A stretch of DNA of 64,000 nucleotides from Antrihabitans auranticaus (GTDB lineage: Bacteria; Actinomycetota; Actinomycetes; Mycobacteriales; Mycobacteriaceae). Within the stretch, counting starts at the first letter, position 1. The number at the start of each line of letters is the position of its first letter. The translations under genes were made by a program, and so were the position numbers. Below the pieces are notes generated by a model that had not been told where the DNA came from, searched no databases, and worked only from the letters and a program-made list of their open reading frames with translations. Where the stretch lies: contig NZ_JAEMNW010000009.1 of NCBI RefSeq assembly GCF_016481275.1, positions 62,001 through 126,000 on the forward strand, read 5' to 3'. Shown piece by piece: positions 2,587-64,000 of the stretch.

Positions 2587-2595
2587 TGCAATCTC

Positions 2596-6218: not shown

Positions 6219-6243
6219 TACGTGCGAACAGGTAGAGTTCGCA

Positions 6244-6280: not shown

Positions 6281-6300
6281 CTTCCCCAATCCCACGAGTC

Positions 6301-10286: not shown

Positions 10287-10407
10287 ACTTCGCTGTCGTA
10301 TCGCGAACACTCACCGAAGTCGCGCGTGTCGACGGTTCCACACGGTTCGCACGACTCCCGCCGAGAATCCACCCATCGACCATGAATACGGCAGCCATGG
10401 AGCGAAG

Positions 10408-11754: not shown

Positions 11755-11923
11755 TGGGCGCCCGGCCGACCGGTTTGCAGCGGTTTCTACCGCTTGTCTG
11801 TTCGATCCTCGACGTGACAGAGGTCCCGAAGCCGCGATGACACGCCTGACCTACGTTGCTCATCCGGCCGATCACGGCCGCTATGGCCGCAGCGGATCGA
11901 ATAATCGAGTTCAGGTGCGACGG

Positions 11924-12637
11924 TCAGTCGCTGTCACTGCCGATTCCCGCGACGCGCACGATGATTTCCTCGACTTTGTCGAGGTGCTGTCGCATGGAAT
12001 TGCTCGCATCGGCGAAGTCGCCGGACTCGATTGCGTCGTACAGGCGTCGGTGCTCGGCGTTCGACGCTTCGCGGCGTTCGGCGATTGTGGCGTTCAACAT
12101 TCGTGACTGCTCGGCAAGTGCGTCGCGGATATCGGCGACGACGTGGCTGAAGACGTGATTGCCGGATGCGTTGGCTATGGCCAGGTGGAATCTGAAATCC
12201 AGATCGACCCAGCGGGCTGGGTCTTCCTCCGAGTCCATCTGTTCGACAATCGAACGTAGTTCTGCAAGTTGGTCATTCGTACGCCGTCGCGCTGCCCAGC
12301 CGGCTGCCGGCACTTCGATGTACGGTCGCGCCTCGAGGAGGTCTCGCGTCGAGAACCGTCCGTAATTCGGACCGCTGACACTCGATGCGATGACCACGGT
12401 GCCGGACCCGGTTTTCGTCGACGTCAATCCGAGCGTTTGCAGCGACCGCAACGCCTCGCGGATGACCGAACGGCTCACGCTGTACCGCTCCGCTAGCGCG
12501 GCTTCCGGCGGCAACTTGACGCCGATCGGTAGCTCCGCACTCTCGATCGACGCTCGCAGGTCTTCGAATACCGACTCGGTGGCGTTGCGGCGAACGAAAG
12601 CACTCGATCGTGTTGCCCATTCATTCGGCAATGTCAT
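11924..12637 (-). CDS. FadR-type GntR transcriptional regulator
   Basis: This 237-residue regulator has an N-terminal winged helix (SVFEDLRASIESAELPIG, then PEAALAERYSVSRSVIREAL) and a C-terminal all-helical FCD ligand-binding domain. FCD metal ligands are likely in DLDFRFHLAIANASGN and NAEHRRLYDAI. FadR/FCD regulators usually sense small carboxylic acids and repress a neighbouring metabolic operon. The flanking genes are phosphofructokinase and TerD, neither an obvious target, so the regulon is not clear from position. An inverted repeat upstream (12713-12768) may be its own operator. Confidence 0.9.
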   Translation of the reverse strand: MTLPNEWATRSSAFVRRNATESVFEDLRASIESAELPIGVKLPPEAALAERYSVSRSVIREALRSLQTLGLTSTKTGSGTVVIASSVSGPNYGRFSTRDLLEARPYIEVPAAGWAARRRTNDQLAELRSIVEQMDSEEDPARWVDLDFRFHLAIANASGNHVFSHVVADIRDALAEQSRMLNATIAERREASNAEHRRLYDAIESGDFADASNSMRQHLDKVEEIIVRVAGIGSDSD

Positions 12638-12712
12638 TGGCGCCTACTTCGCCTCGTTTCGAACAGATCCCCGTCGATTGAACTGGCTGAAGCCTAGCAA
12701 GCCGGACCGGCA

Positions 12713-12768
12713 GCCTGACAGATATGCGCGGCAGGGTGCGCGCGCCGTTGAAAATCCCGATGTCAGGC
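12713..12768. promoter_or_regulatory. Inverted repeat upstream of the GntR gene
   Basis: GCCTGACA at 12713-12720 is matched by its exact complement TGTCAGGC at 12761-12768, forty bases apart. A further short palindrome, CTGTCAGACAG, lies at about 12786. They fall in the 277-base gap upstream of the leftward GntR gene and could bind that dimeric regulator. The spacing is wide, so chance is possible. Confidence 0.3.
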
Positions 12769-12914
12769 AACCAGAGGGCGCTGTGCTGTCAGACAGATGT
12801 GGACTGGTGGACCTCATCGAAAGTTCACCACGGCTCGTCGATTTCGTTCCCGCGCCGGTCCCGCTCTCTGTCTGGTTGGCGGACAGACAAATGGGCCAAA
12901 TCCAGCCTCGAGGA

Positions 12915-13496
12915 CTACAGCATCGCGAAGCGGAGAAGGGCTTGTTTGTCGCCCTGCTTGATTTTGCCGTTTCGATTCAGAACTTCGAGCTGCCACGTGT
13001 TGCCGTTGCGGAACGCCCGCGCGACTGCACAGGCATTGTCCTGGCCCAGCAGGCTCGGCCAGATGTCTGCCACCTGCTGCGTGCTGCCGCCTGTGGCGTC
13101 GTAGATCTTGAACGAGACGTTGTTTGCCTTCTCGAACGAACTGCCCTTCTTGAACGCGGCTGCCACGAAGACGATGGAAGTGATCGCAGGTGCGAGATTG
13201 GCGAACGTGACGTTGACGGTCTCGTCGTCGCCGGACGCGGCTCCAGTCTGCTCGTCGCCGCTATGCAGCACGGATCCGTTGCCCATCGGATCGAGGCTGT
13301 CGAGCCCTGCGAAACGGACAGGGTCGCCACCTTGCATCAGGATGGCGATCAGATCCAGATCAACACCCCGCTTGCGGCGCATTATCCCGAGTACGCCGCC
13401 GGAGGCGCCCGACGACGGGTCCCACGAGACGCCGATCGCCATGTTGGTAACGCCAGCGAGGTCGGCGGGCCCAGATTCCTTGGACAGTGTGATCAT
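12915..13496 (-). CDS. TerD-family stress protein
   Basis: This 193-residue TerD-domain protein is of the tellurite-resistance/stress family, whose members bind calcium and act in membrane-associated stress responses. The N-terminus shows the family pattern ITLSKESG and then IGVSWDPSS; the middle has VDLDLIAILM and HSGDEQTGAASGDDETVNV, the acidic Ca-binding region. The C-terminal half has FEKANNVSFKIYDATGG and NTWQLEVLNRNGKIKQGD, with GDKQALLRFAML at the end. AGGA precedes the ATG. It stands alone, without the TerZ/TerA/TerB genes of full ter operons. Confidence 0.92.
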   Translation of the reverse strand: MITLSKESGPADLAGVTNMAIGVSWDPSSGASGGVLGIMRRKRGVDLDLIAILMQGGDPVRFAGLDSLDPMGNGSVLHSGDEQTGAASGDDETVNVTFANLAPAITSIVFVAAAFKKGSSFEKANNVSFKIYDATGGSTQQVADIWPSLLGQDNACAVARAFRNGNTWQLEVLNRNGKIKQGDKQALLRFAML

Positions 13497-13733
13497 TGCT
13501 GCATCCTATTCTGCGTGTCTTAACAGGAGTTTCGTGGTCGCAAGCATCGGCCGTCGTGATGCTTGCGCGGGTGCGTCGAATTCATCGTCGACTTCGAACA
13601 ATGTCGGACAATCCGGGCGCCATGCCTCCAACATATATGTTGCCCGTTCTGCGGTCGGGGCCTTGGAGGTCACCGATCGACAACCGAAGGGACTGAGACT
13701 GTGGTGCAGCAGCACCCCTGATCTCGCAGGCAA

Positions 13734-14408
13734 TTACCCGCCGGGTCGTGAGTGCGGCGCAGCAGCGGAGAACTCCTGTTCGGGCCGTCCCGTGGTTCCG
13801 TAGCGCAGCCCGATCGTTACGTCCCCGGAAGTGGCCATGGCCGCGAGGTAGCGTTGGGCCGTGGCGCGAGAAACGCCTGTAGCGGCTGCCACCTCGGCTG
13901 CGGACATCGGTTGGTCGGACGTCTGCAGGGCATGCAGCACAAGCGCTTTCGTCGGAGATGCCTGAGCGCTTGCGTGCTGGAGACTTGCGATCTTCGGGCG
14001 CAGCGCGTCCAGCGCCGCGTCGACTGCGTCTGCTGACACAGTCGGTGGTGACAGGATCTTTCGGTATCTCGCGTACCCTGCCAACCGGGCGGCAAGTTCG
14101 GTCGGGGCAAACGGTTTGACCAGAAACCCCAGCGCGCCGGCTGCGATCGCCTCACGCACGGTGTGCGACTCGATGGCCGCGGTGAGCATGATGGCGTCGC
14201 CGCGCAGTTCGCGAACGAAGTCCACCCCTGATCCGTCAGGGAGGTAGACGTCGACCAAGGCAAGGTCGACAGGCTCTACTTTGCGGGCGGACGCGAGTGT
14301 GGTCACGGTCGCCTGGACCGTGAAACCTGGCATGGCAGAAACAATTCCAGCGTGCATGCTGGCCACGCGGAAGTCGTCGTCGACGACCAGAACCGTCAGG
14401 TCTCCCAC
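13734..14408 (-). CDS. Response regulator, CitB/DctR family
   Basis: This 224-residue response regulator has a receiver domain beginning LTVLVVDDDFRVAS, the phospho-acceptor Asp53 in LALVDVYLPDGSG and the conserved Lys in FLVKPFAP. The C-terminal region has a winged-helix-like DNA-binding segment (MSAAEVAAATGVSRATAQRY). The GTG at 14408 is preferred over the longer frame because GAGGAG lies six to seven bases before it. It overlaps the last 13 bases of the histidine kinase gene, giving translational coupling. Such systems switch on uptake of C4- or tri-carboxylates, which fits the MFS carrier in the same operon. Confidence 0.9.
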   Translation of the reverse strand: MGDLTVLVVDDDFRVASMHAGIVSAMPGFTVQATVTTLASARKVEPVDLALVDVYLPDGSGVDFVRELRGDAIMLTAAIESHTVREAIAAGALGFLVKPFAPTELAARLAGYARYRKILSPPTVSADAVDAALDALRPKIASLQHASAQASPTKALVLHALQTSDQPMSAAEVAAATGVSRATAQRYLAAMATSGDVTIGLRYGTTGRPEQEFSAAAPHSRPGG

Positions 14409-48064: not shown

Positions 48065-48868
48065 CTACCGGGTTGCTGTCTTCCGCCAGTACGCGCCCGT
48101 CCAGTCGATCGTCTCGATCCGCTCCGATATTCCGTTGGTTGCGCGAAATTCGTCGACCGCTCGGCGACACCGGGAGAGTCCGTAGTCGTCGACGATCAAG
48201 TAGCCGCCGACGGACAGCTTCGAATACAGGTTCGTCAGGCCGTCCATGGTCGATTCGTACATGTCGCCGTCGAGGCGGACGATCGCGAGTTGTTCGATCG
48301 GTGCGGTCGGCAAGGTGTCCCTGAAGTAGCCCTCGAGGAACACGACTTGATCGTCGAGCAGGCCGTAGCGACGAAAGTTCTCCTCGACCTGGCTGCGGGA
48401 AATTGCGAGCTGTTTGAACCGGTACAGGAGGTCGCCCGCGTCGGCGGGGTACTTCTTTCGGTCCGGCCGCGGCAGACCCTGGAACGAATCCGCCACCCAG
48501 ACCCGCCGATCTCGTATGCCGTGCGCGTCGAGCATGCCGCGCATGAATATGCAGGCACCACCACGCCAGACACCGGTCTCGATGAAGTCACCCGGAACGT
48601 TGTCCGCGAGCACTCTTTCGACGCACGACCGCAGGCTCTTCAGCCGTGCGCGACCGATCATGGTGTGGGCCAACGCAGGCCAGTCCCGACCGTCTTCGCG
48701 GGCCTCGGGGCCAAGGCGTTTGAGCGCCAACCGCGGCGTCGTATGACCGTCCGCGGCATTCCACAAAGCCATCGTGAGCGTGTTGGACAACAAATCGATA
48801 TAGCGCGACCGGAGATGATCCTCGACATTTTTCTGGACGATCGTGCCTGAATTTTCTATGCTCTGCAT
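48065..48868 (-). CDS. TylF/MycF-like O-methyltransferase
   Basis: This 267-residue class I methyltransferase of the macrocin O-methyltransferase family shows the SAM motif FIETGVWRGGACIFMRGML, WVADSFQGLPRPD after it, the metal-site VRLDGDMYESTMDGL and LIVDDYGLSRCRRAVDEF. Family members methylate sugar hydroxyls using Mg. ATG 48868 (MQSIENSGTI) has AAAGGAA upstream. It is close to the PKS-glycosyltransferase operon at 50625 and could methylate its sugar, but it is on the opposite strand with a lipase gene between; that link is a guess. Confidence 0.88.
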   Translation of the reverse strand: MQSIENSGTIVQKNVEDHLRSRYIDLLSNTLTMALWNAADGHTTPRLALKRLGPEAREDGRDWPALAHTMIGRARLKSLRSCVERVLADNVPGDFIETGVWRGGACIFMRGMLDAHGIRDRRVWVADSFQGLPRPDRKKYPADAGDLLYRFKQLAISRSQVEENFRRYGLLDDQVVFLEGYFRDTLPTAPIEQLAIVRLDGDMYESTMDGLTNLYSKLSVGGYLIVDDYGLSRCRRAVDEFRATNGISERIETIDWTGAYWRKTATR

Positions 48869-50624: not shown

Positions 50625-53600
50625 ATGGAGAGCGTGGCGCGGTCGGGCGACCAAGTTCTGGGGATCTCTCCGTTTTCAGAACCCAACGCCCGACACACTG
50701 TGGCTGTTGCGCGCGCCGGTGGTGTCGGCATCCTCGATCTGGGTCGCGATGTCCACGCTGCAGACGTTGCGCTCGCCGATATTTGCGAATGGTGGCAAGG
50801 CCCGTTCGGCGTACGTGTGCCGGCGGGATGCAAGTCGGACCCATTCGATGTTCCCGATCGGGTGGATACCGTCGTGCTCGCGTCGCTGGACGGCACTGCC
50901 GAATGGTTGCGGGCCGACCGGCGCTGGCGAGTTCTCGTAGAGGTGTGTTCGCTTGCGCAGGCGCGCGATGCCGTCCGAGTCGGCAGCCATGGACTCATCG
51001 CGCGCGGATGTGAGGGGGGCGGACGAGTAGGGCAGGCGACGACGTTCGTTCTGCTGCAGCAGCTCCTTGCCGACCCCGCCGTCGCTGTTCCGATCTGGGC
51101 CGCGGGCGGTATCGGCCTGCATACCGCCGCCGCAGCGGTGGCCGGAGGCGCGGCCGGTGTCGTGCTGGACACCCAGTTGGCCCTCGTCTCCGAGATGGAA
51201 CTTCCGCGCACAGTGACGGCCGCACTGCGCGCGATGGACGGAAGCGAAACGGCCGTCGTCGGCGGCCATCGTGTCTACGTTCGCCCGGATCTCTCTGTGC
51301 CGGAACCAGATTGGACTCCCGAGCAGGTCGCTGAAAGGCTCGGCGCACAGGACCTCCGAACCCAGTTGCTCCCCGTCGGCCAGGACGGTGCGCTCGCCGC
51401 AATGCTCGCCGACCGGTTCGGCACCGCGGGCGGAGTGGTGCAGGCGATTCGCAGCGCAATCCAGACGAATATCGCCGCTTCTGTCGAACACGCACCGCTC
51501 GGCGCCGGCGGACGGTTCGCAGCACGGCACGGTCTGCGTGTGAGCGCCGCGCAGGGGCCGATGACGCACGTCAGCGACAAGGCCGCGTTCGCTGCGGCAA
51601 TCGCGCGCGAGGGTGGTCTTCCCTTCCTGGCGCTCTCGCTCATGTCGGGAGACAAAACTCGCGCATTGCTCGAAGAAACCGCGACCGCGCTCGGCGCGGC
51701 CCCGTGGGGTGCGGGCATTCTCGGGTTCGTTCCCGCCGAGCTCCGCGAAGCGCAGTTGCAGGCCGTTCTTGCGGTGCGACCGCCGTACGCGCTGATTGCA
51801 GGCGGCCGACCCGCACAGGCGGCCGAATTGGAGAAGGCGGGCATAGCGACTTTCCTGCATGTGCCTTCGCCCGGTCTGCTGGACCAGTTCCTCGCGCAGG
51901 GTGCGCGCCGCTTCGTGTTCGAGGGACGCGAGTGCGGCGGACACGTCGGTCCGCGAACCAGTTTCGCGCTGTGGGAAGCGCAGATCGAGCGTCTCCTCGC
52001 CTTCGGCCGCGAGCACCCCGACCCCGAGCAATATTTCGACGGGGTCCAGGTTCTGTTCGCGGGCGGCATTCACGACGAACGCTCGGCCGCGATGGTCTCC
52101 ACCCTGGCGGCACCACTCGTCGCGCGCGGGGCCGGAATCGGCGTGCTGATGGGAACCGCGTATCTCTTCGCCGAGGAGGCTGTCGCGTCGGGCGCCATCG
52201 TGCCGACATTCCAGGAGGCCGCCCTGGGCTGCACCGACACCGTCCTACTCGATACGTCGCCGGGCCATTCGACTCGCTGTGTCGATTCGCCGTACGTCCG
52301 TGCGTTTCTCGACACAAAGCAGCGGATGATTGCCGACGGTGTTGGGCGGCAACAGATGTGGGCCGAACTCGAACAGCTCAATCTCGGCCGGTTGCGAATC
52401 GCCAGCAAGGGACTGCGGCGCCGCGGCGACGACATCGTCGCAGTGGCTGCGGGCGTTCAGCGCAGCGACGGCATGGTGATGATCGGCGACGTTGCCGCCC
52501 TGCGGTCGACGACGACCACGATCGCGGAGATTCACGACCGCGTCAGCGCCGGTGCGACCGACTTCCTCGCGACTCGTGCTGCCGAACTCGGAATCGGTTC
52601 CGTACCAACAGAAGTAAAGGGTTCCGCGCCGCTCGACATAGCGATCGTCGGCATGGCAGGCGTCTTTCCCCAAGCCGAAGACGCGGCACGCTACTGGTCG
52701 AACGTCCTCGACGGTGTCGATGCGATCACCGAAGTATCTGCCGATCGCTGGGATCCTGCGCTGTACTACGACTCGGATGCGGGCGGCCGGCCAGACGGGC
52801 ACAAAACGCCGTCCAAGTGGGGCGGCTTCGTGCCCTACATCGCGTTCGATGCCCTGGCTTACGGCATTCCGCCTGCTTCGCTCGCGGCGATCGAGCCGGT
52901 ACAACTACTCGCACTCGAGGTCGCCGCGCGGGCGCTGCGCGACGCCGGTTACCGGACCGTCGGTGGTGCCGGTCGGAGCTTCGATCGCGACCGCACATCG
53001 GTTATCTTCGGCACCGAACCGGGCAGCGACCTCAGCAACGCGTACGGCTTCAGAACACTGTTCCCGTCCTACTTCGGCGAGCTGCCGACCGGACTCGACG
53101 CTCATTTGCCGAAGCTCAGCGAGGACTCGTTCCCGGGTGTGCTCGGCAACGTGATCGCAGGCCGGATCGCCAACCGGCTCGATCTCGGTGGTGCGAACTA
53201 CACGGTCGACGCCGCGTGCGCCTCGTCGCTCGCCGCGCTGGACACCGCGTGCAAAGAGTTGAGCGCCGGCACGAGCGACATGGTGCTGTGCGGGGGAGCG
53301 GACACGCACAACAGCGTGTCGGACTACCTGCTCTTCTCGTCGGTCGGTGCGCTGTCGGCGAGCGGGCGCTGCCGCACCTTCGATTCCGCGGCTGACGGAA
53401 TCGCCATCGGCGAAGGCGTCGGCTGCCTCGTCCTCAAACGCTTGGTCGATGCCGAAAGCGACGGCGATCGCGTGTATGCGGTCGTCAAGGCGATCGCCGG
53501 CTCGAGTGACGGACGTTCGCTGGGGTTGACTGCACCGCGCGCGGACGGCCAGCGTCGGGCGATGGAGCGCGCCTACCTGATGGCCGGTGTTTCACCGGCG

Positions 53601-56600
53601 CAGGTGGGCCTCGTCGAAGCACACGGCACCGGAACAGTCGTCGGAGACCGAACCGAACTGGCGGCATTGACCGAAGTCTTCGCCGACGCAGGCGCGACGC
53701 CCGGTGCGTGCGCGCTCGGATCGGTGAAAAGTCAGATCGGGCACACGAAGTGTGCTGCGGGACTTGCCAGTCTGATCAAGACCGCACGCGCACTGTATGT
53801 CGGTGCGCGCCCACCGACCGGGAACGTCTCGACCCCGAACGGCTTCTGGGACACGGCCTCGAGCCCGTTCTACTTCGACTCCGTCGCCCGGCCGTGGCTT
53901 GCACCCGCGGGCGAACGGTTCGCCGGAGTCAGCTCGTTCGGGTTCGGCGGCACCAACTTTCACGCGGTTCTCGCGGGTTACGGCGGCGCGCCCGAACCTG
54001 CCCACGGCCGCGACGAGTGGCCCGCGGAGCTGTTCTGTTTCCGCGGTGCCGACCGTCAGGCAGCACAACGGTCGATGGAACGATTGGCCGACCTCCTCAC
54101 GGCCAACGACGCCGCGGGCAGACCGTGGCGGCTGCGCGACCTTGCGCGAACCGTTGCCGAAGAGTTCGGCGATTCCGGACGGCCCGTGCAGGTCGCGTTC
54201 GTGGCATCCGATCTCGATGACCTGATGAGCCGGCTTGCGTTGGCGCGAGACTCCGTCACGAGGCCCGGCGACGGTATCTTCGCCGCCGTCGGGCCGACGG
54301 CGGCGAAGACCGGGCGAGTGGCATTCCTGTATCCCGGCCAAGGCTCGCAGCGCGTCGGGATGCTGGCCGATCTGTTCGTCGCTTTCCCGCGGTTGCGACG
54401 GTTTTTGCGCCTCGGCAAGGACTGGTACCCACAGATGTACCCGCCCGCGACGTTCTCGCCCGACGATGCGGCTGCGCAGCGCGCAGACCTCACCGACACC
54501 CGGGTCGCGCAACCGGCACTGGGCGTTGCCGAACTGGCCATGACAGAGTTGCTCGCCACGTTGGGGATTCGGCCGGATGCCGCGGCGGGCCACAGCTACG
54601 GCGAGCTGGTCGCGCTGTATTCGGCAGGTGTCCTGTCCGACGTCGAGTTGCTCGATCTCAGTCGTGCCCGCGGTGCGGCAATCATTGCCGCCGCACGAAG
54701 TGCCGGCCAGGACGCCGGTGCGATGGCCGCTGTCAGTGGGAATGCCGAGCGTGTGCGGGCCGTGCTCGCGGCGCACACCGACTGCGAATCGGTGGTGCTG
54801 GCCAACCGCAATGCACCCGAGCAGACAGTGATTTCCGGCCCGACGGCGGCGATCGAGAGCGCGGTCGTCCGGCTCGGTTCGCAGGGTCTGCGTGCGACCA
54901 AACTTCCTGTGGCGTGCGCATTCCACAGCCCGGTCGTGGCGGGTGCGGCCGGCAGTCTCGGGCTAGCGATCGACAAGACTCACCTGGCCGCACCGTCGTT
55001 CCCAGTCTGGTCGAATTCGACGGCGGCGCCCTACCCGCGCAGTGTCGAGGCAGTTCGTGACCTGCTCGTCCGGCAGGTCGCAGAGCCGGTGCGCTTCGTC
55101 GAACAGATCGAGTCGATGTACGCCGCCGGCGTGCGGATCTTCGTCGAGGCGGGTCCGGGTCGCGTGCTGACGCAGCTCGTCGGCAAGATTCTCGGCGATC
55201 GCGAGCACACCGTCGTGGCATGTGACGCGCCCGGCGAATCCGGACTGCGCCGGCTGCTGTTTGCGCTCGCCGAACTCGCGGCCGCGGGCGTCGCGGTCGA
55301 CACGACTGCGCTGTTCAGGGGCCGAGACGCGCGAGCTGTTTCGCAGGCTGACCTGCCACGACGACCGGGCTGGTTGGTGAACGGTCAGCTGATCTGCACA
55401 GCGGACAGACAACACGTGCCCGGCAGTCTGCGCCCGGCGCGCGAACTCGAGACGCAAGTCCTTCCGCTGGCTGCTTTCGGTCCGGCGCCGACAGCGGCCC
55501 GCGACGATGTCGTGCTCGAGTTCCTGCGGTCGACGCGCGAACTGATGACTGCGCAGCGTGACGTCATGATGGGCTACCTCGGTACGACCGCTGCCGAACT
55601 TCCCGCCGCGCTGCCGGTGCATTCGGTGGCCGCCATCCCCGCGGTGGAAGCTCCCGAGTCGGCCGAGATCGTCACTGCCGCACCCGCAGTTCAATTCACG
55701 CCCGAGCGGGCTTTCGCGACGTTGCGTGCTGTCGTGAGCGAAAGGACAGGTTATCCGGCGGACATGCTGGACGCCGATCTCGACCTCGAAGGCGACCTCA
55801 GCATCGACTCGATCAAACGGATCGAGATCTTCGGAGTGCTGCGCGAGCGCATGGCGTTCCTGGGCGGTTCGGCGGCTGTCGACGAGTCCGCTGTCGAGGA
55901 ACTCGCACGACTCAAGACTCTGCAGATGATCGTGGATTGGCTTGTGAGCCGGTCTGATTCGGCGACAGCCGCCGTGCCCGCCGACGGGAACGGCGCTGCG
56001 GGAAGCGACCCAGCGCCGGTATCGGCGGGATGCGAGCGCTACGTGGTCGAGGTGCAGCCGTTGCCTGCCCTCGCGCCGAGTGCGGCAACGTCGTTGGCCG
56101 GACACAATGTCGTCGTTGTCGAATCCGGGTGCGACGTCGACCGCGAAGTAAGAATCTTGCTCGAACGGCACGGCGCCAAGGTGTGCCAACTGCAGGCAGA
56201 TGCCGACTGGAGCAAGGCAATTCGTAGCGCTGACGTGGTCGTGCACCTCGCGGGAATTGCCGCAGACACCGCGCCACTGCTGCCCGACAACTTTGCGCTG
56301 CTGCGGGAGTCGCTACTCGGTGGGGCAACTCGGCTTCTCGTGGCCACCGGTCTCGGCGGCAGGTTCGGTCGCGACAGTCACAGCAGAGGCGACGGGGCGG
56401 TCGGGTTGCACGGGCTGGTTCGAACGGCAGCACTGGAGTTCCCCGAAGTCGCCGCGCGCGCCGTCGATGTCGATCCCAAGGACGAACCCGAACGAATCGC
56501 TGCCGCGTTGATCGCCGAACTTTGTCTGACGGACCGGAGTGCCCCCGTTGTCGTGGGTTACCTCGACGGTGAGAGGGCGACGCCGATCGTCGTCGCAACA

Positions 56601-57530
56601 CCGCTGTCCGCAGGAGCACTGTCCGGGGAACGGCAGCCCGACGCGGCCGCACTCGGTCTCGGACCGTCGGCTGTCGTTCTGCTCACCGGTGGTGCTCGCG
56701 GCATCACCGCGAAGGTAGCGATGGGCCTGGCACGCGTGACCGGTTGCCACGTCGAACTGGTCGGGCGCACACCGCTTCCCGAGGCACCCGAATCGCCGGC
56801 AACCGCTGCGGCAACAGATCGAATTGCGTTGCGCCGCGCACTCATCGCACAGGGTATGCGAATTCCCGCCGACGTGGATGCCATGGCGACGCGCCTTCTC
56901 GCCGAGCGGGAAATCCGCAGCACGCTAGCCGTGCTGGATGGCAGTGCGGCGTCAGTTCGTTATCACGCCCTCGATATCCGGGACGCCGCGGCGGTTCGCA
57001 GGGTCGTCGACGACATCTATTCGCGGCACGGACGGCTCGACGGTGTCGTGCACGGCGCAGGAATTCTGGACGACCGCCTCACCAAAGACAAGTCGCCGCA
57101 ATCGTTCCGGAACGTCTTCGACACGAAGATCGAAGGTGCGCGCGCCATCGCGCGGGCGGTGCGGGAAGACCTGCGGTTCCTCGTGCTGTTCGGCAGTGTG
57201 TCCGGCGTCTTCGGAAATCGGGGCCAGGTCGACTACGCCGCGGCCAACGACGCACTCGACACCCTTGCGCATACGTGGGGCGCCCGCATCCCGGGGCGCG
57301 TGCTCGCCGTCGACTGGGGTCCCTGGGCCGCGACCGACGGCGGGATGGTGACGGCCGAATTGGTGCAGGAGTACGCGCGACGGGGTATCGGCGTGATCGA
57401 GCACGACGACGGGGTCGCGTGCTTGCTGCAGGAGTTGGCGTACGGCGGCGGCGACGACGTGCAGGTGCTGTACATGGCGGGGTCACCCGAAGGATTCGGC
57501 GCCGCGATGCCGGGTCGTGCTCGTGACTGA
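50625..57530 (+). CDS. PfaD-PfaA-like fusion synthase (NMO-NMO-KS-AT-ACP-KR)
   Basis: This 2301-residue multidomain lipid/polyketide synthase starts at ATG 50625 after GGCGGAG. Two PfaD-like nitronate-monooxygenase/enoyl-reductase domains come first (about 5-260 and 290-620); the first has GCEGGGRVG, the second ECGGHVG. The KS (from 668) has Cys865 in VDAACASSLAALD and the HGTG and GHTK His motifs. The AT (from 1233) has FLYPGQGSQRVGM and Ser1324 in GHSYGE. One ACP has Ser1729 in DLSIDSIKRIEI, the PUFA-synthase style. The KR (about 2010-2290) has LLTGGARGITAKVA. It should elongate and reduce an acyl chain. The gene overlaps the next by 14 bases. Confidence 0.9.
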   Translation: MESVARSGDQVLGISPFSEPNARHTVAVARAGGVGILDLGRDVHAADVALADICEWWQGPFGVRVPAGCKSDPFDVPDRVDTVVLASLDGTAEWLRADRRWRVLVEVCSLAQARDAVRVGSHGLIARGCEGGGRVGQATTFVLLQQLLADPAVAVPIWAAGGIGLHTAAAAVAGGAAGVVLDTQLALVSEMELPRTVTAALRAMDGSETAVVGGHRVYVRPDLSVPEPDWTPEQVAERLGAQDLRTQLLPVGQDGALAAMLADRFGTAGGVVQAIRSAIQTNIAASVEHAPLGAGGRFAARHGLRVSAAQGPMTHVSDKAAFAAAIAREGGLPFLALSLMSGDKTRALLEETATALGAAPWGAGILGFVPAELREAQLQAVLAVRPPYALIAGGRPAQAAELEKAGIATFLHVPSPGLLDQFLAQGARRFVFEGRECGGHVGPRTSFALWEAQIERLLAFGREHPDPEQYFDGVQVLFAGGIHDERSAAMVSTLAAPLVARGAGIGVLMGTAYLFAEEAVASGAIVPTFQEAALGCTDTVLLDTSPGHSTRCVDSPYVRAFLDTKQRMIADGVGRQQMWAELEQLNLGRLRIASKGLRRRGDDIVAVAAGVQRSDGMVMIGDVAALRSTTTTIAEIHDRVSAGATDFLATRAAELGIGSVPTEVKGSAPLDIAIVGMAGVFPQAEDAARYWSNVLDGVDAITEVSADRWDPALYYDSDAGGRPDGHKTPSKWGGFVPYIAFDALAYGIPPASLAAIEPVQLLALEVAARALRDAGYRTVGGAGRSFDRDRTSVIFGTEPGSDLSNAYGFRTLFPSYFGELPTGLDAHLPKLSEDSFPGVLGNVIAGRIANRLDLGGANYTVDAACASSLAALDTACKELSAGTSDMVLCGGADTHNSVSDYLLFSSVGALSASGRCRTFDSAADGIAIGEGVGCLVLKRLVDAESDGDRVYAVVKAIAGSSDGRSLGLTAPRADGQRRAMERAYLMAGVSPAQVGLVEAHGTGTVVGDRTELAALTEVFADAGATPGACALGSVKSQIGHTKCAAGLASLIKTARALYVGARPPTGNVSTPNGFWDTASSPFYFDSVARPWLAPAGERFAGVSSFGFGGTNFHAVLAGYGGAPEPAHGRDEWPAELFCFRGADRQAAQRSMERLADLLTANDAAGRPWRLRDLARTVAEEFGDSGRPVQVAFVASDLDDLMSRLALARDSVTRPGDGIFAAVGPTAAKTGRVAFLYPGQGSQRVGMLADLFVAFPRLRRFLRLGKDWYPQMYPPATFSPDDAAAQRADLTDTRVAQPALGVAELAMTELLATLGIRPDAAAGHSYGELVALYSAGVLSDVELLDLSRARGAAIIAAARSAGQDAGAMAAVSGNAERVRAVLAAHTDCESVVLANRNAPEQTVISGPTAAIESAVVRLGSQGLRATKLPVACAFHSPVVAGAAGSLGLAIDKTHLAAPSFPVWSNSTAAPYPRSVEAVRDLLVRQVAEPVRFVEQIESMYAAGVRIFVEAGPGRVLTQLVGKILGDREHTVVACDAPGESGLRRLLFALAELAAAGVAVDTTALFRGRDARAVSQADLPRRPGWLVNGQLICTADRQHVPGSLRPARELETQVLPLAAFGPAPTAARDDVVLEFLRSTRELMTAQRDVMMGYLGTTAAELPAALPVHSVAAIPAVEAPESAEIVTAAPAVQFTPERAFATLRAVVSERTGYPADMLDADLDLEGDLSIDSIKRIEIFGVLRERMAFLGGSAAVDESAVEELARLKTLQMIVDWLVSRSDSATAAVPADGNGAAGSDPAPVSAGCERYVVEVQPLPALAPSAATSLAGHNVVVVESGCDVDREVRILLERHGAKVCQLQADADWSKAIRSADVVVHLAGIAADTAPLLPDNFALLRESLLGGATRLLVATGLGGRFGRDSHSRGDGAVGLHGLVRTAALEFPEVAARAVDVDPKDEPERIAAALIAELCLTDRSAPVVVGYLDGERATPIVVATPLSAGALSGERQPDAAALGLGPSAVVLLTGGARGITAKVAMGLARVTGCHVELVGRTPLPEAPESPATAAATDRIALRRALIAQGMRIPADVDAMATRLLAEREIRSTLAVLDGSAASVRYHALDIRDAAAVRRVVDDIYSRHGRLDGVVHGAGILDDRLTKDKSPQSFRNVFDTKIEGARAIARAVREDLRFLVLFGSVSGVFGNRGQVDYAAANDALDTLAHTWGARIPGRVLAVDWGPWAATDGGMVTAELVQEYARRGIGVIEHDDGVACLLQELAYGGGDDVQVLYMAGSPEGFGAAMPGRARD

Positions 57531-60500
57531 CGCGGCACACGGCTCCAACGGACCGGCGGTGGCTATCGTCGGGATCGGCGCCCTGTTCCCCGGTGCCGGT
57601 GATGCAGAAACCTTCTGGCGCAACATAGTCGGCGGGGTCGACGCGATCTCGCAGGTCCCACCCACGCGGTGGGATCCCGAGTACTACCAGCCGGATCTGC
57701 CGGCCGCCAGTGATCGGCTCTACTGTCGGCGCGGTGGCTTCGTCGACGACCTCGCCTACTTCGACCCGGCCCCGTTCGGCATCATGCCGTTCGCTGCAGC
57801 CGGTTCGGAACCGGATCAAATGCTGGCCCTACGGGTCGCCACCGAGGTGATCACCGACATCGGCGGTCCAGAGCGGCTGCCTGACCGAAGCCGGGTCGGT
57901 GTGATCCTGGGACGTGGCGGCTACCTGTCCCCAGCGGGCGCGCGGCTCGATCAACGCGTGCGGACGGCGCGACAGCTGGTCACGACGTTGCGCGAGTTGG
58001 TACCCGACCTCGGTGAGGATCAGCTCGAACAGGTCCGCTCCGCGTTCCAGGAGCGGCTCGGACCCGAAAGACCGGAGGCCGCAATCGGCTTGGTGCCCAA
58101 CCTCGTCGCATCCCGCATCGCGAACCGGCTCGATCTGCAGGGCCCGGCGTATACGGTCGACGCGGCTTGTGCGTCGTCGCTACTGGCAGTCGACCACGCT
58201 GTCAGCGAACTTGCCACCGGCCGTTGTGATTTGGTCCTTGCCGGCGGGGTTCATCACACCCACGACATCACCTTCTGGTCGGTGTTCACCCAACTCGGCG
58301 CGTTGAGCCGCAGTGAGCAGATTCGCCCCTTCGATCAAAGTGCGGACGGGCTGCTGATCGGTGAAGGCACGGGCATGATTGCGCTGAAGCGACTCGCGGA
58401 CGCCGAGCGGGACGGCGACCGGATCTATGCGGTCGTCCGCGGTACCGGAATTTCGAGCGACGGCCGCGCATCGAGCCTGATGGCGCCGCGCACGGAAGGT
58501 CAAGTCCTCGCGCTGCAAAGGGCCTGGCGCACAGCGGGACTCGATCCGACCGCACCGGGAGCGATCGGACTGCTCGAGGCGCACGGAACCGCGACACCCG
58601 CCGGCGACGAGGCTGAACTTGCCACATTGACGACGGTTTTCGGTCTGGCTACGACGTCGGGACCGGACATCGGAATCGGTTCTGTGAAGTCCATGATCGG
58701 CCACACCATGCCTGCCGCGGGTATCGCTGGTCTCATCAAGGCGGTTCTCGCGGTGTACCACGGGGTCTTGCCGCCGACCTTGCACTGCGACGAACCGCAC
58801 CGCGCGTTCGCGGGTACCCGCTTCGCGCCCGTGACCGCCGCCCGACCGTGGAAAGAACCACTGACCGGTCCACGGCGGGCTGCCGTCAACGCCTTCGGCT
58901 TCGGCGGCATCAACGCACACGTGATCGTCGAACAAGCGCCTGGACCGAAGGTCGGCTCGCATCACACCGAAACCGATCGGGCTGCCGGCGCGGAGAGTCT
59001 TCTGCTGCTGTCCGGCGCAACTGTGGGCGATATCGCCGCAGCGCTCGATGTCGACGACGACGCGCTGCTCGAACAGGCCCGCCGTTGCGCGTCGACGGGT
59101 ACCGGCCCGGTCCGGCTGGCGATTGCCGCACCCGACGCCCGCCGGATAGCGCTGGCACGCAAGATCGTTGCCCGCGGAACGCCGTGGCGGGGCCGCAGCG
59201 ATGTCTATTTCGAGCCGCGCCGACTGATCACCGATCGCCGGCAGGTCGCGTTTCTCTTCCCGGGCCTGGAACCGACGTTTGCGCCACGGATCGAGGGGGT
59301 CGCCGCGCATTTCGGGCTTCCGCCAATCGAATTGAGCAGCGGCACGTCGTTCGTCGAGCAAGCGGTGAACGTGGTGGCAGTTAGCCGTTTGCTCGCAGCA
59401 GCCATGCACGAAATCGGTATCGAGCCAGGACTTCTGGCCGGTCATAGCCTCGGCGAATGGACAGCGATGGTCGCCGGCGGGATGTACCGGCGCGAGGATG
59501 CAGACGCCTTCATCGACTCGGTCGCCGACGACGGCGCTGATTCACCGGATGTCGTCTACGCCGCGCTCGGCTGCTCGGCCGCCGACGCTGTGACTGCGCT
59601 CGGTGCACTGCACGGTCCGGCGGATGTCGTCGTCACACATGACAATTGCCCGCATCAGTCGGTCGTGTGCGGTCACCCGCAGCGGATCGACGAGGCGATC
59701 GACCGCCTCCGTCAGGCAGGTGTACTTGCTCAGGTCGTGCCTATTCGGACGGGCTTTCACTCGCCGGTGATGGCCGACCACCTCGGTCCGGTCTACGACG
59801 CCTTCCACCGTTTGCCACCGCGTGCTGCCTCCGTCCCCGTGTGGTCCGCGACGTCGGTCGACAAGTTTCCGGACTCACCCGAGCAGATCCGCGCGCTCGT
59901 GATCAGGCATCTCGTCGAGCCCGTGCGCTTCCGGCCCTTGCTCGAGCGCCTGCACGCGGAAGGTGTCCGCGCATTCGTGCAGATCGGACCCGGCAGCCTG
60001 CCGGGATTCGTTGCAGACACGCTGCGGGGGAGCGAACACCTAGTTGTCGAAACCGCTGTTGCCGAACGTGATTCGCTGGTTCAGCTGTGGCGCGTCGCAG
60101 CGGCGTTGTGGGCCGCGGGTCTGAATCCACGGTTCGATCGGTTGCCTGGGATACAGCGGCCGGAGCGACGCACACCCGCAAAACCGTTGTCCTCGACCGC
60201 GATCAAGCTGGACCTCGGCAACCGGTCCATCATGCTCGGCGGTGCGCTGGCGCCACTCGTTCCGCAGCCGGCAGCAGCAACGTCGTCCCGAAGTCGGACT
60301 GCAGCGCTTGCGGACAGCGCGATTCTTGCCGAGTTCGACGCACTCGTCGCGGAGATGACGGCGCACACCGAGTCGGTGGTGCAGGCGTGGGCACAGACCG
60401 CCACGAATGTCGTCGCACTGCCCACGACGGCCACGACAACGCGCGTCATCTCACTCGAAACCATGCCCGAACTGATCGATCATTCGCTGATCGCGACCCC

Positions 60501-61965
60501 GGCGGGTTGGCATGATCCCTCGGACGGATTTCCCATCGTGCCGATCACCGGGATGCTCGAGATCATGGCGGACGCAGCCCGCGAGCTGTTGCCCGGTCGC
60601 GTCGTCATCGGCTGGTCGAATGTGCGGGCGATGCGCTGGCTCGTCGCCGCGCCGGCCACGACCGTCACGATCGACGCCGTCGTGGACGAGAGCGCACGAG
60701 ACGATGCCGAGTGCGTCACGGTGACCATAGCGGGTCATGCGACCGGCACAGTCCTACTGTCCGGACGCTATCCGCACCCGCCTGAACGCACGTCGGAGCT
60801 GCTCGACGGTGAGCGCCCGGCAGCGGTCTCCGCGGATCGAATCTACCGCGACAGAAGACTTTTCCACGGCCCACGATTCGCGGGCATTACGGAGCTCGTC
60901 TGCGACGCGGACTGGGGTGCGCGCGCGGTGCTGGTCAATCTGCCGACGCGGGGTGCGCTCTTCGACGCGGTCGGTCAGGTGATCGGGCATTGGGCGCAGG
61001 TGTCTCTCCAGGTCGATCGCACCGTGTTCCCGGTCGGGATCGATTCGATCGAGCTGTACGGCCCGCCGCAGCGGGATGGCGCCCTGCTGAAACAGACGGC
61101 GTGGATTCGTGAGGCCACGTCGACGACCCTGCGTGCGGATTCCGACCTGGTCGACGAGCGCGGCGCGCTGTGGGCCCGCGTGCAGGGTTGGACGAACAGC
61201 CGCATCGCGGGCGACGAGCGCAACTGGCAGATGCAGCTGCATCCCGATTCGCTCGGGCTGGGCACGATTGAGCCCGGCGGCTGGTGCCTCGTGGAGGAGC
61301 AGTGGCCCGACACCCGCACGCGCGAGTTGATCATGCGCAACTACATGTGTGCAGTCGAGCGCGACGCGTACGAACGCCTCGATCCGATGCACCAGCGGCG
61401 TTGGCTGCTCGGCCGGATTGCCGCCAAAGACGCCGTTCGTAACTGGCTGTGGGCCAACGGGACTGCGTCGGTCTACACGTGCGAGTTTGCGATCGATGCC
61501 AGTGTCACCGGTCGGCCGTATGCTGTTGGCCTGCCGAACCTCGACGAATTGCAGATCGCCCACGCGAATACGAACTGCCGCGGGCGTGCCGTGGGACTCG
61601 GCGTTGCCATGGTCGCCACCCACGCGGTCGGCATCAGTATCACAGCGGTTGGCGGCGACACCACGGAAGTGCCGCTCAGTGCGGGCGAGCGCGACCTCAT
61701 CCACCAGCTGCCCACGAGCGATCCCACCGTACTGCGCGCCCGGTTCGCCGCCGCGAAAGAGGCTGCGGCGCAGTTGGCCAACGAGGATGGGCCGCTCGCG
61801 GTTGCCGCGGTCCGACACAACGCCGACCAGGACGCGGATGTCACTGTCGAGCCGCTCGCGAGCTGTCCGCTACCGATCCACACGCGTCTGATTACCGTCG
61901 ACGACCAGCCCTTCGTCGTCGCGTGGACGCATTCACCGTCAGCCGACCGAGGAGACTCACGATGA
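57517..61965 (+). CDS. KS-AT-DH synthase with PPTase-like C-terminus
   Basis: This 1482-residue companion synthase starts at GTG 57517 (or 57523). The KS has Cys218 in VDAACASSLLAVD, His356 in EAHGTATPAG and His396 in IGHTMPAAG. The AT (about 575-900) has FLFPGLEP and Ser644 in GHSLGE. A hotdog dehydratase-like domain follows with PELIDHSLIATPAGW (His989) and FPIVPITGMLE. The end (about 1255-1470) resembles a fused phosphopantetheinyl transferase: WLLGRIAAKDAVR and AAAKEAAAQ (Lys1414, Glu1415). The usual G-I-D-x-E is GISIT (1372-1376), so its metal site looks lost. It overlaps the next gene by four bases. Confidence 0.88.
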   Translation: MLVTDAAHGSNGPAVAIVGIGALFPGAGDAETFWRNIVGGVDAISQVPPTRWDPEYYQPDLPAASDRLYCRRGGFVDDLAYFDPAPFGIMPFAAAGSEPDQMLALRVATEVITDIGGPERLPDRSRVGVILGRGGYLSPAGARLDQRVRTARQLVTTLRELVPDLGEDQLEQVRSAFQERLGPERPEAAIGLVPNLVASRIANRLDLQGPAYTVDAACASSLLAVDHAVSELATGRCDLVLAGGVHHTHDITFWSVFTQLGALSRSEQIRPFDQSADGLLIGEGTGMIALKRLADAERDGDRIYAVVRGTGISSDGRASSLMAPRTEGQVLALQRAWRTAGLDPTAPGAIGLLEAHGTATPAGDEAELATLTTVFGLATTSGPDIGIGSVKSMIGHTMPAAGIAGLIKAVLAVYHGVLPPTLHCDEPHRAFAGTRFAPVTAARPWKEPLTGPRRAAVNAFGFGGINAHVIVEQAPGPKVGSHHTETDRAAGAESLLLLSGATVGDIAAALDVDDDALLEQARRCASTGTGPVRLAIAAPDARRIALARKIVARGTPWRGRSDVYFEPRRLITDRRQVAFLFPGLEPTFAPRIEGVAAHFGLPPIELSSGTSFVEQAVNVVAVSRLLAAAMHEIGIEPGLLAGHSLGEWTAMVAGGMYRREDADAFIDSVADDGADSPDVVYAALGCSAADAVTALGALHGPADVVVTHDNCPHQSVVCGHPQRIDEAIDRLRQAGVLAQVVPIRTGFHSPVMADHLGPVYDAFHRLPPRAASVPVWSATSVDKFPDSPEQIRALVIRHLVEPVRFRPLLERLHAEGVRAFVQIGPGSLPGFVADTLRGSEHLVVETAVAERDSLVQLWRVAAALWAAGLNPRFDRLPGIQRPERRTPAKPLSSTAIKLDLGNRSIMLGGALAPLVPQPAAATSSRSRTAALADSAILAEFDALVAEMTAHTESVVQAWAQTATNVVALPTTATTTRVISLETMPELIDHSLIATPAGWHDPSDGFPIVPITGMLEIMADAARELLPGRVVIGWSNVRAMRWLVAAPATTVTIDAVVDESARDDAECVTVTIAGHATGTVLLSGRYPHPPERTSELLDGERPAAVSADRIYRDRRLFHGPRFAGITELVCDADWGARAVLVNLPTRGALFDAVGQVIGHWAQVSLQVDRTVFPVGIDSIELYGPPQRDGALLKQTAWIREATSTTLRADSDLVDERGALWARVQGWTNSRIAGDERNWQMQLHPDSLGLGTIEPGGWCLVEEQWPDTRTRELIMRNYMCAVERDAYERLDPMHQRRWLLGRIAAKDAVRNWLWANGTASVYTCEFAIDASVTGRPYAVGLPNLDELQIAHANTNCRGRAVGLGVAMVATHAVGISITAVGGDTTEVPLSAGERDLIHQLPTSDPTVLRARFAAAKEAAAQLANEDGPLAVAAVRHNADQDADVTVEPLASCPLPIHTRLITVDDQPFVVAWTHSPSADRGDSR

Positions 61966-62276
61966 CCGCAGCGACCGGTGACAGCCGGGTATTCGACGAG
62001 GTGGTGGCGATGCTCACCGAGGTGATCGGCGCGGACTTCCTGCTGGAGATCGATGTGACCCCCGAATCGTCGTTCAGTGACGACCTCGCCGTGGAGAGCG
62101 TCGAGTTCGTCGCGCTGGGGCAGAAGCTGCAGCAGCGCTACGGCGAAGACGTGAATTTCGTTGCCTTCGTTGCCGACCTGGACATCGACCAGATCACCGC
62201 GATGAACGTGGGCACCGTCGTGTCTTACATCGAGACCTGTCTCTCCGAGACGGCGGCACTGGGCGCCGATGGCTGA
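61962..62276 (+). CDS. Stand-alone acyl carrier protein
   Basis: This 104-residue acyl carrier protein starts at ATG 61962, overlapping the synthase stop as ATGA and served by GAGGAG. The four-helix pattern has the phosphopantetheine Ser in DDLAVESVEFVALGQKLQ, where VESVE replaces the common DSLD/DSIK. The C-terminal DLDIDQITAMNVGTVVSYIE is typical. It should carry the growing or finished acyl chain between the synthases and the following hydrolase or glycosyltransferase. It overlaps the hydrolase gene by eight bases. Confidence 0.88.
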   Translation: MTAATGDSRVFDEVVAMLTEVIGADFLLEIDVTPESSFSDDLAVESVEFVALGQKLQQRYGEDVNFVAFVADLDIDQITAMNVGTVVSYIETCLSETAALGADG

Positions 62277-63102
62277 CGTCACTGCTTCCGGCGTGCGATT
62301 TCACGTCGAGCGGATCGCGCCCCGCGGCATTGCGGCGGGGTCGCTGCCCACTGCTCCAACCGTGGTGTTCATGCACGGCATGGCGGTCGACGACATGGCC
62401 AGCTTCTACTTCACCCTTGCGGCGCCGCTCGCGGCCACCGGGGCCGACGTAATTCTGTACGACCAACGTGGACAGGGTTTGTCGGAGCGACCGCGGTCGG
62501 GTTACACGATCGACGACGCGGTCGCGGACCTGTTCGGGATTCTCGACGCCATGGCCGTGACCGAGCCGGTTGTGTTGATCGGCAACAGCTTCGGCGGCTT
62601 CGTCGCGGGTCACGCTGCGTTTGCGCGACCCGAGAGGGTTGCGGGAATAGTCTTCATCGAAGCCATCTGCGCCGGACCGGTTGCCGCGGACTGGGTGGAG
62701 AGCATGGTCAACTCGCTCAGTGTCACAGCGCTGAATTTGGAACATGAACGCACACACGAACAATGCGCAACCGCGGGGCTTCGCAAGTCCGCGAAGAAGC
62801 TGGGCAGTATTTACGATCTGCTCAACGGCACGACGCTGATCGAGGACTTGGCCGCCACGCCGCCGCTGCCCGAGCGCAGTCTGGCAGCCATCGAGTGCCC
62901 GACGCTCGCAATCTTCGGTGAGCATTCGTTTCTACTGCCCGCGGCCGACGACCTCGTACGGAACGTGCCCGACTGCGCGGTCGAAATCCTGCCCGACGTG
63001 AACCATTCGGTGCTCGTCGAAGCGACGGGTCCGTTGTGCGCCTTGATCGTCGATTGGCTCGTGAGGCTGGCTCCCGTCGAACTGGCGGTGGCAACGAGAT
63101 GA
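62269..63102 (+). CDS. Alpha/beta hydrolase (thioesterase-like release enzyme)
   Basis: This 277-residue alpha/beta hydrolase has the oxyanion motif VFMHGMAVDDMASFY, DQRGQGLSERP after strand 4, and the nucleophile elbow VLIGNSFGGFVAG. The acid is near IFGEHSFLLPAADD and the catalytic His in PDVNHSVLVEATG. In this operon it is the natural candidate for releasing the chain from the carrier protein, or for coupling it to an acceptor. That role is inferred from position. It starts inside the end of the ACP gene and overlaps the glycosyltransferase gene by four bases. Confidence 0.88.
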   Translation: MADVTASGVRFHVERIAPRGIAAGSLPTAPTVVFMHGMAVDDMASFYFTLAAPLAATGADVILYDQRGQGLSERPRSGYTIDDAVADLFGILDAMAVTEPVVLIGNSFGGFVAGHAAFARPERVAGIVFIEAICAGPVAADWVESMVNSLSVTALNLEHERTHEQCATAGLRKSAKKLGSIYDLLNGTTLIEDLAATPPLPERSLAAIECPTLAIFGEHSFLLPAADDLVRNVPDCAVEILPDVNHSVLVEATGPLCALIVDWLVRLAPVELAVATR

Positions 63103-64000
63103 GTCGATACCTGTTCGTGGTGCCGCCGCTGATCGGACACATCAATCCCACTCTCGACGTCGGTGCGGAGTTGACCGCGCGTGGTCACGAGGTCGCCTGG
63201 GTCGGTTACGCGCGCGTCCTCGATGATCTGCTCCCATTGGGAGCCCGTACTTTTCGGCTGCACGACGACGTCTCCGATGCTCATCTGCGAGCAGTGCACG
63301 AACACTGGCTCGGTTTGCGCGGAACTGCGGAATTGAAGTTCTTCTGGGAAGAGTTTCTGGTTCCGCTCGGCGACGCGATGCTGCCCGGTGTCGAAGATAC
63401 GATCGCGCTCTTCGCGCCGGATGTGCTCGTCGCCGACCAGCAGGCGCTCGCGGGTCCGGTCGCAGCAATGCGTGCCGGGCTGCCCTGGGCCACATCGGCG
63501 ACCACGTCCTCCGAGGTAGCCCGGCCACTGGCAGCGATGCCCAAGGTCGAAGAATGGGTCGTTGCGCAGATGACGGACTTCCAGCGTGCGCAGGGTGTTT
63601 CGGAACCTGTCGATCTGCGCTGGTCTCCTGAACTCGTCTTGGTCTTCTCATCGGAGGCGCTGGTCGGTTCGCTCGATGCAGTCCCGGCACACTTCGTATT
63701 CACCGGTCCCAGCATCGCGCCGAAGCCCGCGACCGGCGAGTTCCCCTGGGAATGGCTCGATTCCGGTCGCCGGACTGTGCTTGCCTCCCTGGGCACACTC
63801 AATGCCGAGGCGGGACGCGTCTTCTACAGCGCACTGGTCGACGCGCTCGCGGACGAGGGCGATCGAATGCAGGTAGTCATCGTGGCTCCACCCGGGGTGG
63901 TCGAGAACCCTCCCGAGCATGTTCTTGTCCGGGATTTCGTGCCCCAGCGCGAGTTGCTCGGACACGTCGACGCTGTCGTGACACATGGTGGTCACAACAC
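63099..64000 (+). CDS. UGT-like glycosyltransferase (partial, runs off window)
   Basis: The first 300 residues of a GT-B glycosyltransferase of the UGT/MGT family are visible. The N-terminal acceptor domain starts YLFVVPPLIGHINPTLDVGA (the GHxxP motif) with VLVADQQALAGPVAAMRAGL. The start of the donor domain has RTVLASLGTLN and VLVRDFVPQRELLGHVDAVV. The final THGGHNT is the beginning of the nucleotide-sugar signature, cut by the window end. It would add a sugar to the released lipid or polyketide. Overlap of start and stop codons ties it to the preceding four genes in one coupled operon. Confidence 0.9.
   Translation, partial: MSRYLFVVPPLIGHINPTLDVGAELTARGHEVAWVGYARVLDDLLPLGARTFRLHDDVSDAHLRAVHEHWLGLRGTAELKFFWEEFLVPLGDAMLPGVEDTIALFAPDVLVADQQALAGPVAAMRAGLPWATSATTSSEVARPLAAMPKVEEWVVAQMTDFQRAQGVSEPVDLRWSPELVLVFSSEALVGSLDAVPAHFVFTGPSIAPKPATGEFPWEWLDSGRRTVLASLGTLNAEAGRVFYSALVDALADEGDRMQVVIVAPPGVVENPPEHVLVRDFVPQRELLGHVDAVVTHGGHN

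Follow-up and report, generated by a model that had tools for sequence, protein, structure and literature searches.

A ten-gene operon for a candidate glycosylated lipid in Antrihabitans auranticaus, with two large synthases, a tandem FabK-like reductase and a linked glycosyltransferase

Operon layout and synthase domains

The stretch studied here comprises 64,000 nucleotides of Antrihabitans auranticaus DNA (the window; in the 6.5-Mb genome it spans bases 62001-126000 of a contig 184 kb long), at the end of which lies an operon of ten co-directional genes headed by two large synthases. The operon extends on the forward strand from position 50625 to about 71567, its last 7.6 kb lying beyond the window end, and is flanked on both sides by opposite-strand genes. 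In order, it encodes synthase 1, synthase 2, a free acyl carrier protein (ACP), a hydrolase, the glycosyltransferase GT_a, a galactokinase-like GHMP protein, the methyltransferase MT_a, the glycosyltransferases GT_b and GT_c and the methyltransferase MT_b, giving a total of three UGT-fold glycosyltransferases and two methyltransferases. The first five junctions overlap by 14, 4, 8, 4 and 8 bases and the junctions GT_b/GT_c and GT_c/MT_b by 4 bases each, with gaps of 31 bases before MT_a and 21 bases before GT_b. An earlier note on this DNA had described five linked genes; this linkage was borne out (50625-57530, 57517-61965, 61962-62276, 62269-63102 and 63099-64307, all co-directional and overlapping), and the operon proved longer than supposed, five further genes continuing past the window end.

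Synthase 1 (50625-57530, forward strand; 2301 amino acids from an ATG, with an upstream TTG at 50520 as a possible alternative start) was assigned from Pfam and NCBIfam domains and active-site residues as a tandem enoyl reductase (ER) followed by ketosynthase (KS), acyltransferase (AT), a single ACP and ketoreductase (KR). KS, AT and KR scored over the Pfam cut-offs, and the integral ACP (PP-binding), which carries one DSI motif, reached 20.3 bits, just below the cut-off of 20.8. Synthase 2 (57517-61965, forward strand; 1482 amino acids) matched KS, AT and dehydratase (DH) domains in Pfam and NCBIfam and ends in a degenerate phosphopantetheinyl transferase (PPTase) domain. A second KS-AT-DH synthase had been predicted previously and these three domains were indeed found, but the C-terminal PPTase domain had been overlooked. 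The DH half of synthase 2 adopts the dehydratase fold of polyketide synthases in a structure model (mean pLDDT 81.4; confident for DH, not for the PPTase part). All catalytic residues examined are present in the window: C/H/H in the KS and S/H in the AT of synthase 1, S in the ACP, S/Y/N in KR, C/H/H in the KS (KS2) and S/H in the AT of synthase 2, and H/D in DH. Because the active-site Cys of KS2 is present, in 71 of 72 aligned rows (one gap), this domain is not a chain-length factor (CLF). Judged by sequence, the two synthases jointly hold all domains of a fully reducing cycle, namely KS, AT, ACP, KR, DH and a flavin ER.

The PPTase domain of synthase 2 scored 15.2 bits with the ACPS model here against a cut-off of 25, and the Skermania protein (L053) gave nothing; relatives L099 and L055 reached 53.3 and 65.9 bits, and L086, truncated at the end of its locus, 22.7 bits. 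The GID/GVD motif, whose Asp binds metal, is found in 9 of 12 sequences compared, the exceptions being the window (GIS), Skermania (AIG) and an Actinomadura sequence, L141 (GIG). Since the built-in domain lacks key residues, phosphopantetheine is probably supplied in trans; a search of this genome found two other PPTases elsewhere. A separate locus, L008 (G000:C19:25000-44999), holds a 3140-amino-acid open frame with two AT matches and an ACPS match about 5 kb further on, probably FAS-I with AcpS.

Behind the synthases, the free ACP, hydrolase and UGT-type glycosyltransferase that the earlier note had named were all found, the hydrolase being of the alpha/beta kind. The ACP gene (61962-62276, forward strand; 104 amino acids) matched PF00550 with 24.3 bits against the cut-off of 20.8, and the hydrolase (62269-63102, forward strand), with the nucleophile motif GNSFG, is the proposed chain-release enzyme. 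The MGT/UGT-like GT_a starts at 63099 on the forward strand and is cut at 64000 by the window end, its true end being at about 64307. In window coordinates extrapolated beyond that end, and on the same strand, the remaining genes are GHMP at 64300-65280 (L006:2301-3281), MT_a at 65312-67171, GT_b at 67193-68500, GT_c at 68497-69681 and MT_b at 69678-71567.

The tandem FabK-like reductase

The N-terminal part of synthase 1 (50625-52580, forward strand) contains two flavin TIM barrels, barrel 1 covering about residues 1-265 and barrel 2 about residues 300-650, which are homologous to each other (hhalign probability 95, E 3.6e-8). This region had been read as PfaD, joined to PfaA. A reductase fused N-terminally to a PfaA-like KS-AT-ACP-KR was confirmed; its identity as PfaD was not. 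The PfaD model TIGR02814 gave no match in this genome at E<=0.001. Across the same search of 14 genomes, nine gave some match to this model: true PfaD, at 492-657 bits, was found in two genomes, and sub-cut-off matches of 20-33 bits in these two and in seven others. By contig number, none of the match places in the 14 genomes is the fused-synthase locus. In the control set for TIGR02814, 3 of 14 matched, one of them above the cut-off, so the model itself performs as it should.

The FabK model TIGR03151, on the other hand, matched each barrel separately (7.8e-16 and 2.4e-17). It is the sole NCBIfam family that matches the reductase region and it matched 40 of 40 members of the relatives' alignment, with a score for the window protein (112.2 bits) that lies far under the cut-off of 453.1. 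In addition, all eight ordinary homologues of the nitronate monooxygenase (NMO) kind scored higher than the two true PfaDs with the profile of barrel 1 and with that of barrel 2, a comparison biased by the fact that four of the eight had been found through similarity to the window protein. In the AlphaFold model of the reductase (mean pLDDT 93.2), strands and helices alternate in two barrel-like series, and in a Foldseek search FabK ranked first with a TM score by target of 0.85, solved PfaD structures following from rank 41 at about 0.5. However, PfaD chains are longer and the TM scores by query are nearly equal (FabK 0.43, PfaD 0.39-0.41), so that the fold alone is weak evidence for FabK over PfaD, and the sequence models are the stronger argument. 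On these model matches the reductase is FabK-like, neither PfaD nor FabK. Both reductase kinds occur in one genome, that of Allokutzneria sp. NRRL B-24872 (L173, G756:C157), which carries two true PfaD genes and a FabK-type fused synthase.

The two barrels differ at the position of the catalytic His (the last residue of the FabK motif xEAGGH), which in the window is occupied by Arg134 in barrel 1 and His440 in barrel 2. In an alignment of 80 rows (the window and 79 relatives), the barrel 2 motif xECGGH has its catalytic His in 78 rows, and the barrel 1 motif xExGGR has Arg in 64 rows and His in one. This asymmetry suggests a pseudo-dimer of covalently joined barrels in which a single site works.

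Distribution of the fused synthase and its glycosyltransferase block

The fused protein was found in one of the four genomes of the genus, this one included, the other three giving weak NMO matches only; counting this genome each time, it is present in 10 of 401 family genomes and 10 of 396 phylum genomes. A scan of named genomes returned at least 589 stretches with the pattern and at least 440 confirmed relatives, of which 80 loci were kept, including Streptomyces, Actinomadura, five Frankia loci (L075, L085, L113, L135 and L137), Pseudonocardiales, Acidimicrobiaceae and two Acidobacteriaceae. In all 80 aligned rows (frames of at least 2000 amino acids), barrel 1 is in one frame with the synthase. 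The architecture is thus not rare: it occurs in many actinobacteria, with 79 complete fused relatives examined, and cannot count as unusual. The same holds for the combination of fusion and a single integral ACP, which had been singled out as departing from the norm, since by a regular expression 69 of the 79 complete fused relatives have exactly one ACP motif (two in five, none in five), and fused pfaDA has been published.

Gene content around these loci was counted by tblastn, since simple gene calling misreads very G+C-rich loci. Within a set of 47 loci from 46 genomes, all but one have a GT_a homologue (47-64% identity) on the strand of the synthase, 8.8-14.6 kb downstream of the ER start (46 loci), and a GT_a match was found in 45 of the 46 genomes searched. 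Because this set consists of the closest relatives among the 80 kept loci and is biased toward similarity, more weight is given to two further samples, in which GT_a homologues were found in 8 of 9 family relatives and in 7 of 9 phylum-survey loci, the latter not chosen by the presence of a glycosyltransferase. A further 20 downstream loci, picked for having a GT_a match, contain the ACP in 20, the hydrolase in 19, the methyltransferase in 16 and GHMP in 8 cases; 18 of them lie behind kept loci, and the remaining two, L151 and L162, represent further copies within genomes already sampled. Synthase and glycosyltransferase distances are correlated across 27 loci (Mantel r 0.88; none of 5000 permutations reached this value), a co-divergence that can be explained by a lasting partnership. 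Actinomadura xylanilytica has two glycosyltransferase copies on one contig (G743:C3:209361 and 1179290), the first of which (L151) is surrounded by a synthase-2 homologue, ACP, hydrolase, methyltransferase and GHMP. The family exception, G004 (L067/L068), has a diverged fused synthase of 2564 amino acids and a second synthase of 1682 amino acids with neither ACP nor glycosyltransferase behind them; the next same-strand gene carries IFIVGNPRSGTT near its start, a motif that to us looks like that of a sulfotransferase.

The full set of GHMP, MT_a, GT_b, GT_c and MT_b behind the core was found, among the nine relatives and 20 downstream loci, only in this genome and in Skermania sp. ID1734 (L074), which shares all ten genes and their order and has one hydrolase more. 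GT_a and GT_c, as well as MT_a and MT_b, are paralogues, and the identity of a Skermania copy with the other window paralogue is 46-47% for the glycosyltransferases and 43% for the methyltransferases. This suggests, from sequence comparison, a duplicated glycosyltransferase-methyltransferase pair. The N-terminal parts of MT_a and MT_b, about 280 amino acids each (L006:3313-4150 and 7679-8500; about 65312-66150 and 69678-70500), matched no Pfam family above cut-off in a search with E up to 5, and whole MT_a had no PDB match at E 0.01; this N-terminal part occurs in 3 of 401 family genomes, always in this cluster. The GHMP protein matches a galactokinase in the PDB (2.7e-13), and neither an APGR nor an MDQ string, which we read as GHMP motifs, is present in any of 10 aligned copies; the protein is perhaps a sugar-binding pseudo-kinase.

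Upstream of the operon and divergent from it lies a gene for a secretory lipase (PF03583; 48980-50200, reverse strand). Lipase homologues of about 48-52% identity are located about 1.6-1.7 kb upstream, likewise divergent, in relatives G047 and G063, and about 14 kb behind the core in G026; the stretches of six other relatives contain none. The TylF-type methyltransferase (48065-48868, reverse strand; PF05711, 349.9 bits) was rejected as an operon member, being on the opposite strand and behind the lipase gene. A homologue was found neither in the 40-kb stretches of the nine relatives nor in the 20 downstream loci, the latter without their upstream side. O-methylation of the product by this enzyme, as once suggested, is therefore unlikely, the more so as the operon has two methyltransferases of its own. 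The G+C content is 0.57-0.62 at positions 1-14000 of the window and 0.615-0.68 across the rest.

Proposed function and comparison with known systems

In our view the operon probably specifies a Type M-like secondary lipid synthase, iterative and of type I, that is dedicated to a glycosylated product. According to this proposal, the ATs would load malonyl units for repeated extension on the integral ACP; KR and DH would act, and barrel 2 would reduce the chain in some or all cycles. Because TIM-barrel ERs are dimers, our guess is that barrel 1 serves as a covalently attached structural partner. The chain would pass to or from the free ACP and be released by the hydrolase, after which GT_a may put the first sugar on a hydroxyl group; the other four enzymes, GT_b, GT_c, MT_a and MT_b, may lengthen the sugar part and add methyl groups to it. 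The simplest product of an iterative, fully reducing synthase that is accompanied by a release enzyme and between one and three glycosyltransferases would be a glycosylated, hydroxylated fatty acid or polyketide; here the likely compound of this kind has a long chain and carries one to three (methylated) sugars. Gene content thus lends support to the glycosylated long-chain or polyketide product that the earlier note had predicted, given the glycosyltransferase in 46/47, 8/9 and 7/9 loci and the two extra ones here.

Several observations weigh against this proposal. Vertical descent of a linked block could give the same co-divergence of synthase and glycosyltransferase. The fetched stretches of L183 and L186 (phylum survey) and G004 (family) contain no glycosyltransferase, that of L183 reaching only about 1.4 kb past the hydrolase, and that of L186 has no ACP either; in Frankia sp. 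CIT1 (L075), a genome-wide search gave no match to GT_a at E<=1e-20. L162, a second copy, presents the ACP, hydrolase, glycosyltransferase and methyltransferase as a block with no synthase-2 match in the preceding 3 kb, and L071/L158, from a metagenome bin, has no synthase 2 between synthase 1 and ACP, indicating that the tie between the block and the two synthases is not a strict one. The action of GT_b, GT_c and both methyltransferases on one molecule is suggested by this operon and one relative, and the conserved Arg of barrel 1 may mean function rather than decay. Finally, no known product was found for any member, and it is from gene order and co-divergence only that we infer glycosylation of the synthase product.

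Among other explanations, a cell-envelope glycolipid of the mycobacterial glycopeptidolipid or phenolic glycolipid kind, with its long chain anchored in the mycolate layer, appears unlikely. Such loci use glycosyltransferases and methyltransferases like the three and two, respectively, that are encoded here, and the genome belongs to the same family as Skermania; but the core is also present in Streptomyces, Actinomadura, Frankia and Acidobacteria, which are not known to have a mycolate layer, and neither an MmpL-like transporter nor a gene of the PapA type was seen among the ten genes of the operon. Somewhat less probable still is a polyketide glycoside that is secreted and acts as a signal or antibiotic, instead of a structural lipid. 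The patchy distribution within genus, family and phylum would fit such a compound, as would the best NCBIfam match of GT_a, a macrolide glycosyltransferase subfamily; however, this match, at 190.2 bits, is below the subfamily cut-off of 260, and the operon has no dedicated exporter or regulator. A canonical polyunsaturated fatty acid (PUFA) synthase making membrane fatty acids, with PfaD fused to PfaA and unrelated sugar genes, is very improbable: synthase 1 does score 919.7 bits with the PfaA model TIGR02813, but this is under the cut-off of 1010.1, there is one ACP instead of the 4-6 given for PfaA (PMC3098273), the genome has no PfaD match, the KS2 Cys precludes a KS-CLF pair and, across the phylum, most of the loci examined have a sugar gene linked to them.

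Returning to the dedicated glycosylated-product synthase, the analysis links one large synthase group to a conserved block of ACP, hydrolase and glycosyltransferase genes, and predicts a glycosylated long-chain acyl product. The reductase that was taken for PfaD falls in a different branch of the flavin TIM barrels and forms an asymmetric pair, which bears on the timing of reduction in iterative synthases. The expanded sugar set here and in Skermania, with three sugar genes as against one, would constitute a natural series linking genes to glycan structure. A broader idea is put forward tentatively, as we think it possible but less likely than its opposite: the ER of this large, mainly actinobacterial group may have an origin separate from PfaD, a FabK/NMO-like barrel having been doubled to form a covalent pseudo-dimer and the catalytic His of one site swapped for a conserved Arg; the asymmetric ER might help to set the reduction in each cycle, and the whole group might be a dedicated glycolipid pathway hidden by the labels PUFA-like, PfaD and hglE-like.

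In the literature searched, mostly without subscription papers, we found no earlier description of the FabK-like tandem or of the phylum-wide glycosyltransferase partnership, and the open-licence literature yielded no description of a product of this cluster or of any group member. Gordonic acid was rejected as a known product, since it is described as what seems to be an intermediate on the way to alpha-lipomycin, produced by the Streptomyces partner (PMC12187902). Frankia vesicle-envelope mutants were set aside as well, as the accessible portions of PMC12501873 and PMC7308572 gave no link to this synthase, and antiSMASH reports of hglE-KS, as they provide a class label only and no product (PMC8396431, PMC8510958); nothing on this cluster was found in a reference-list passage of PMC9680422.

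The closest published counterparts are the Type M secondary lipid synthases of Actinosynnema mirum, three Frankia, Renibacterium salmoninarum and Streptomyces avermitilis, which the 2011 survey puts among the types with an uncharacterised product, 14 such types being counted there (Shulse & Allen 2011, PMC3098273). Fused pfaDA and pfaBC-PPTase genes that resemble those of Renibacterium are reported in two Flavobacteriales, together with another pfaD-pfaA fusion in Ottowia (PMC13291983), so that the novelty once claimed for the fusion does not stand. Compared by published descriptions, the likeness lies in a reductase fused to a PfaA-like KS-AT-ACP-KR (PMC13291983, PMC3098273) and in the Frankia members of both groups. 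PfaBC is fused with a PPTase in the published genes (PMC13291983); here KS-AT-DH is followed by a degenerate PPTase. The differences are further that the reductase is named PfaD/ER there and is a tandem FabK-like pair here, and that the conserved hydrolase-glycosyltransferase block of the present group is not mentioned in the published descriptions, as far as these were accessible. By its predicted domain plan we class the operon as a probable variant of the Type M kind, not as a new architecture.

Canonical PUFA synthases (Types A/B) share the PfaA order KS-AT-ACP-KR, but they have tandem ACPs, a separate PfaD, a CLF and two DH domains, unlike the present system (PMC3098273). Heterocyst glycolipid synthases (Type F, hgl) also pair an iterative synthase with a glycosyltransferase of their own, HglT, which completes the long-chain glycolipid (PMC11804610, PMC3098273); hglC, however, is KS-CLF-AT in a cluster without DH (PMC3098273), whereas KS-AT-DH, a fused ER and a hydrolase are found here. 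Membership in this class was rejected, as KS2 keeps its Cys and a DH is present. With regard to the reductase, FabK shares the fold and the barrel 2 motif xExGGH, and differs in that the window protein falls short of the FabK cut-off and is fused and doubled. Paired, non-identical TIM-barrel ERs are known from the ERb/ERc heterodimer of the thraustochytrid PUFA synthase, where, as we read PMC13311796, both domains keep the His, belong with PfaD and not FabK, and are on separate subunits, whereas here the barrels are FabK-like and covalently joined, one of them without the His.

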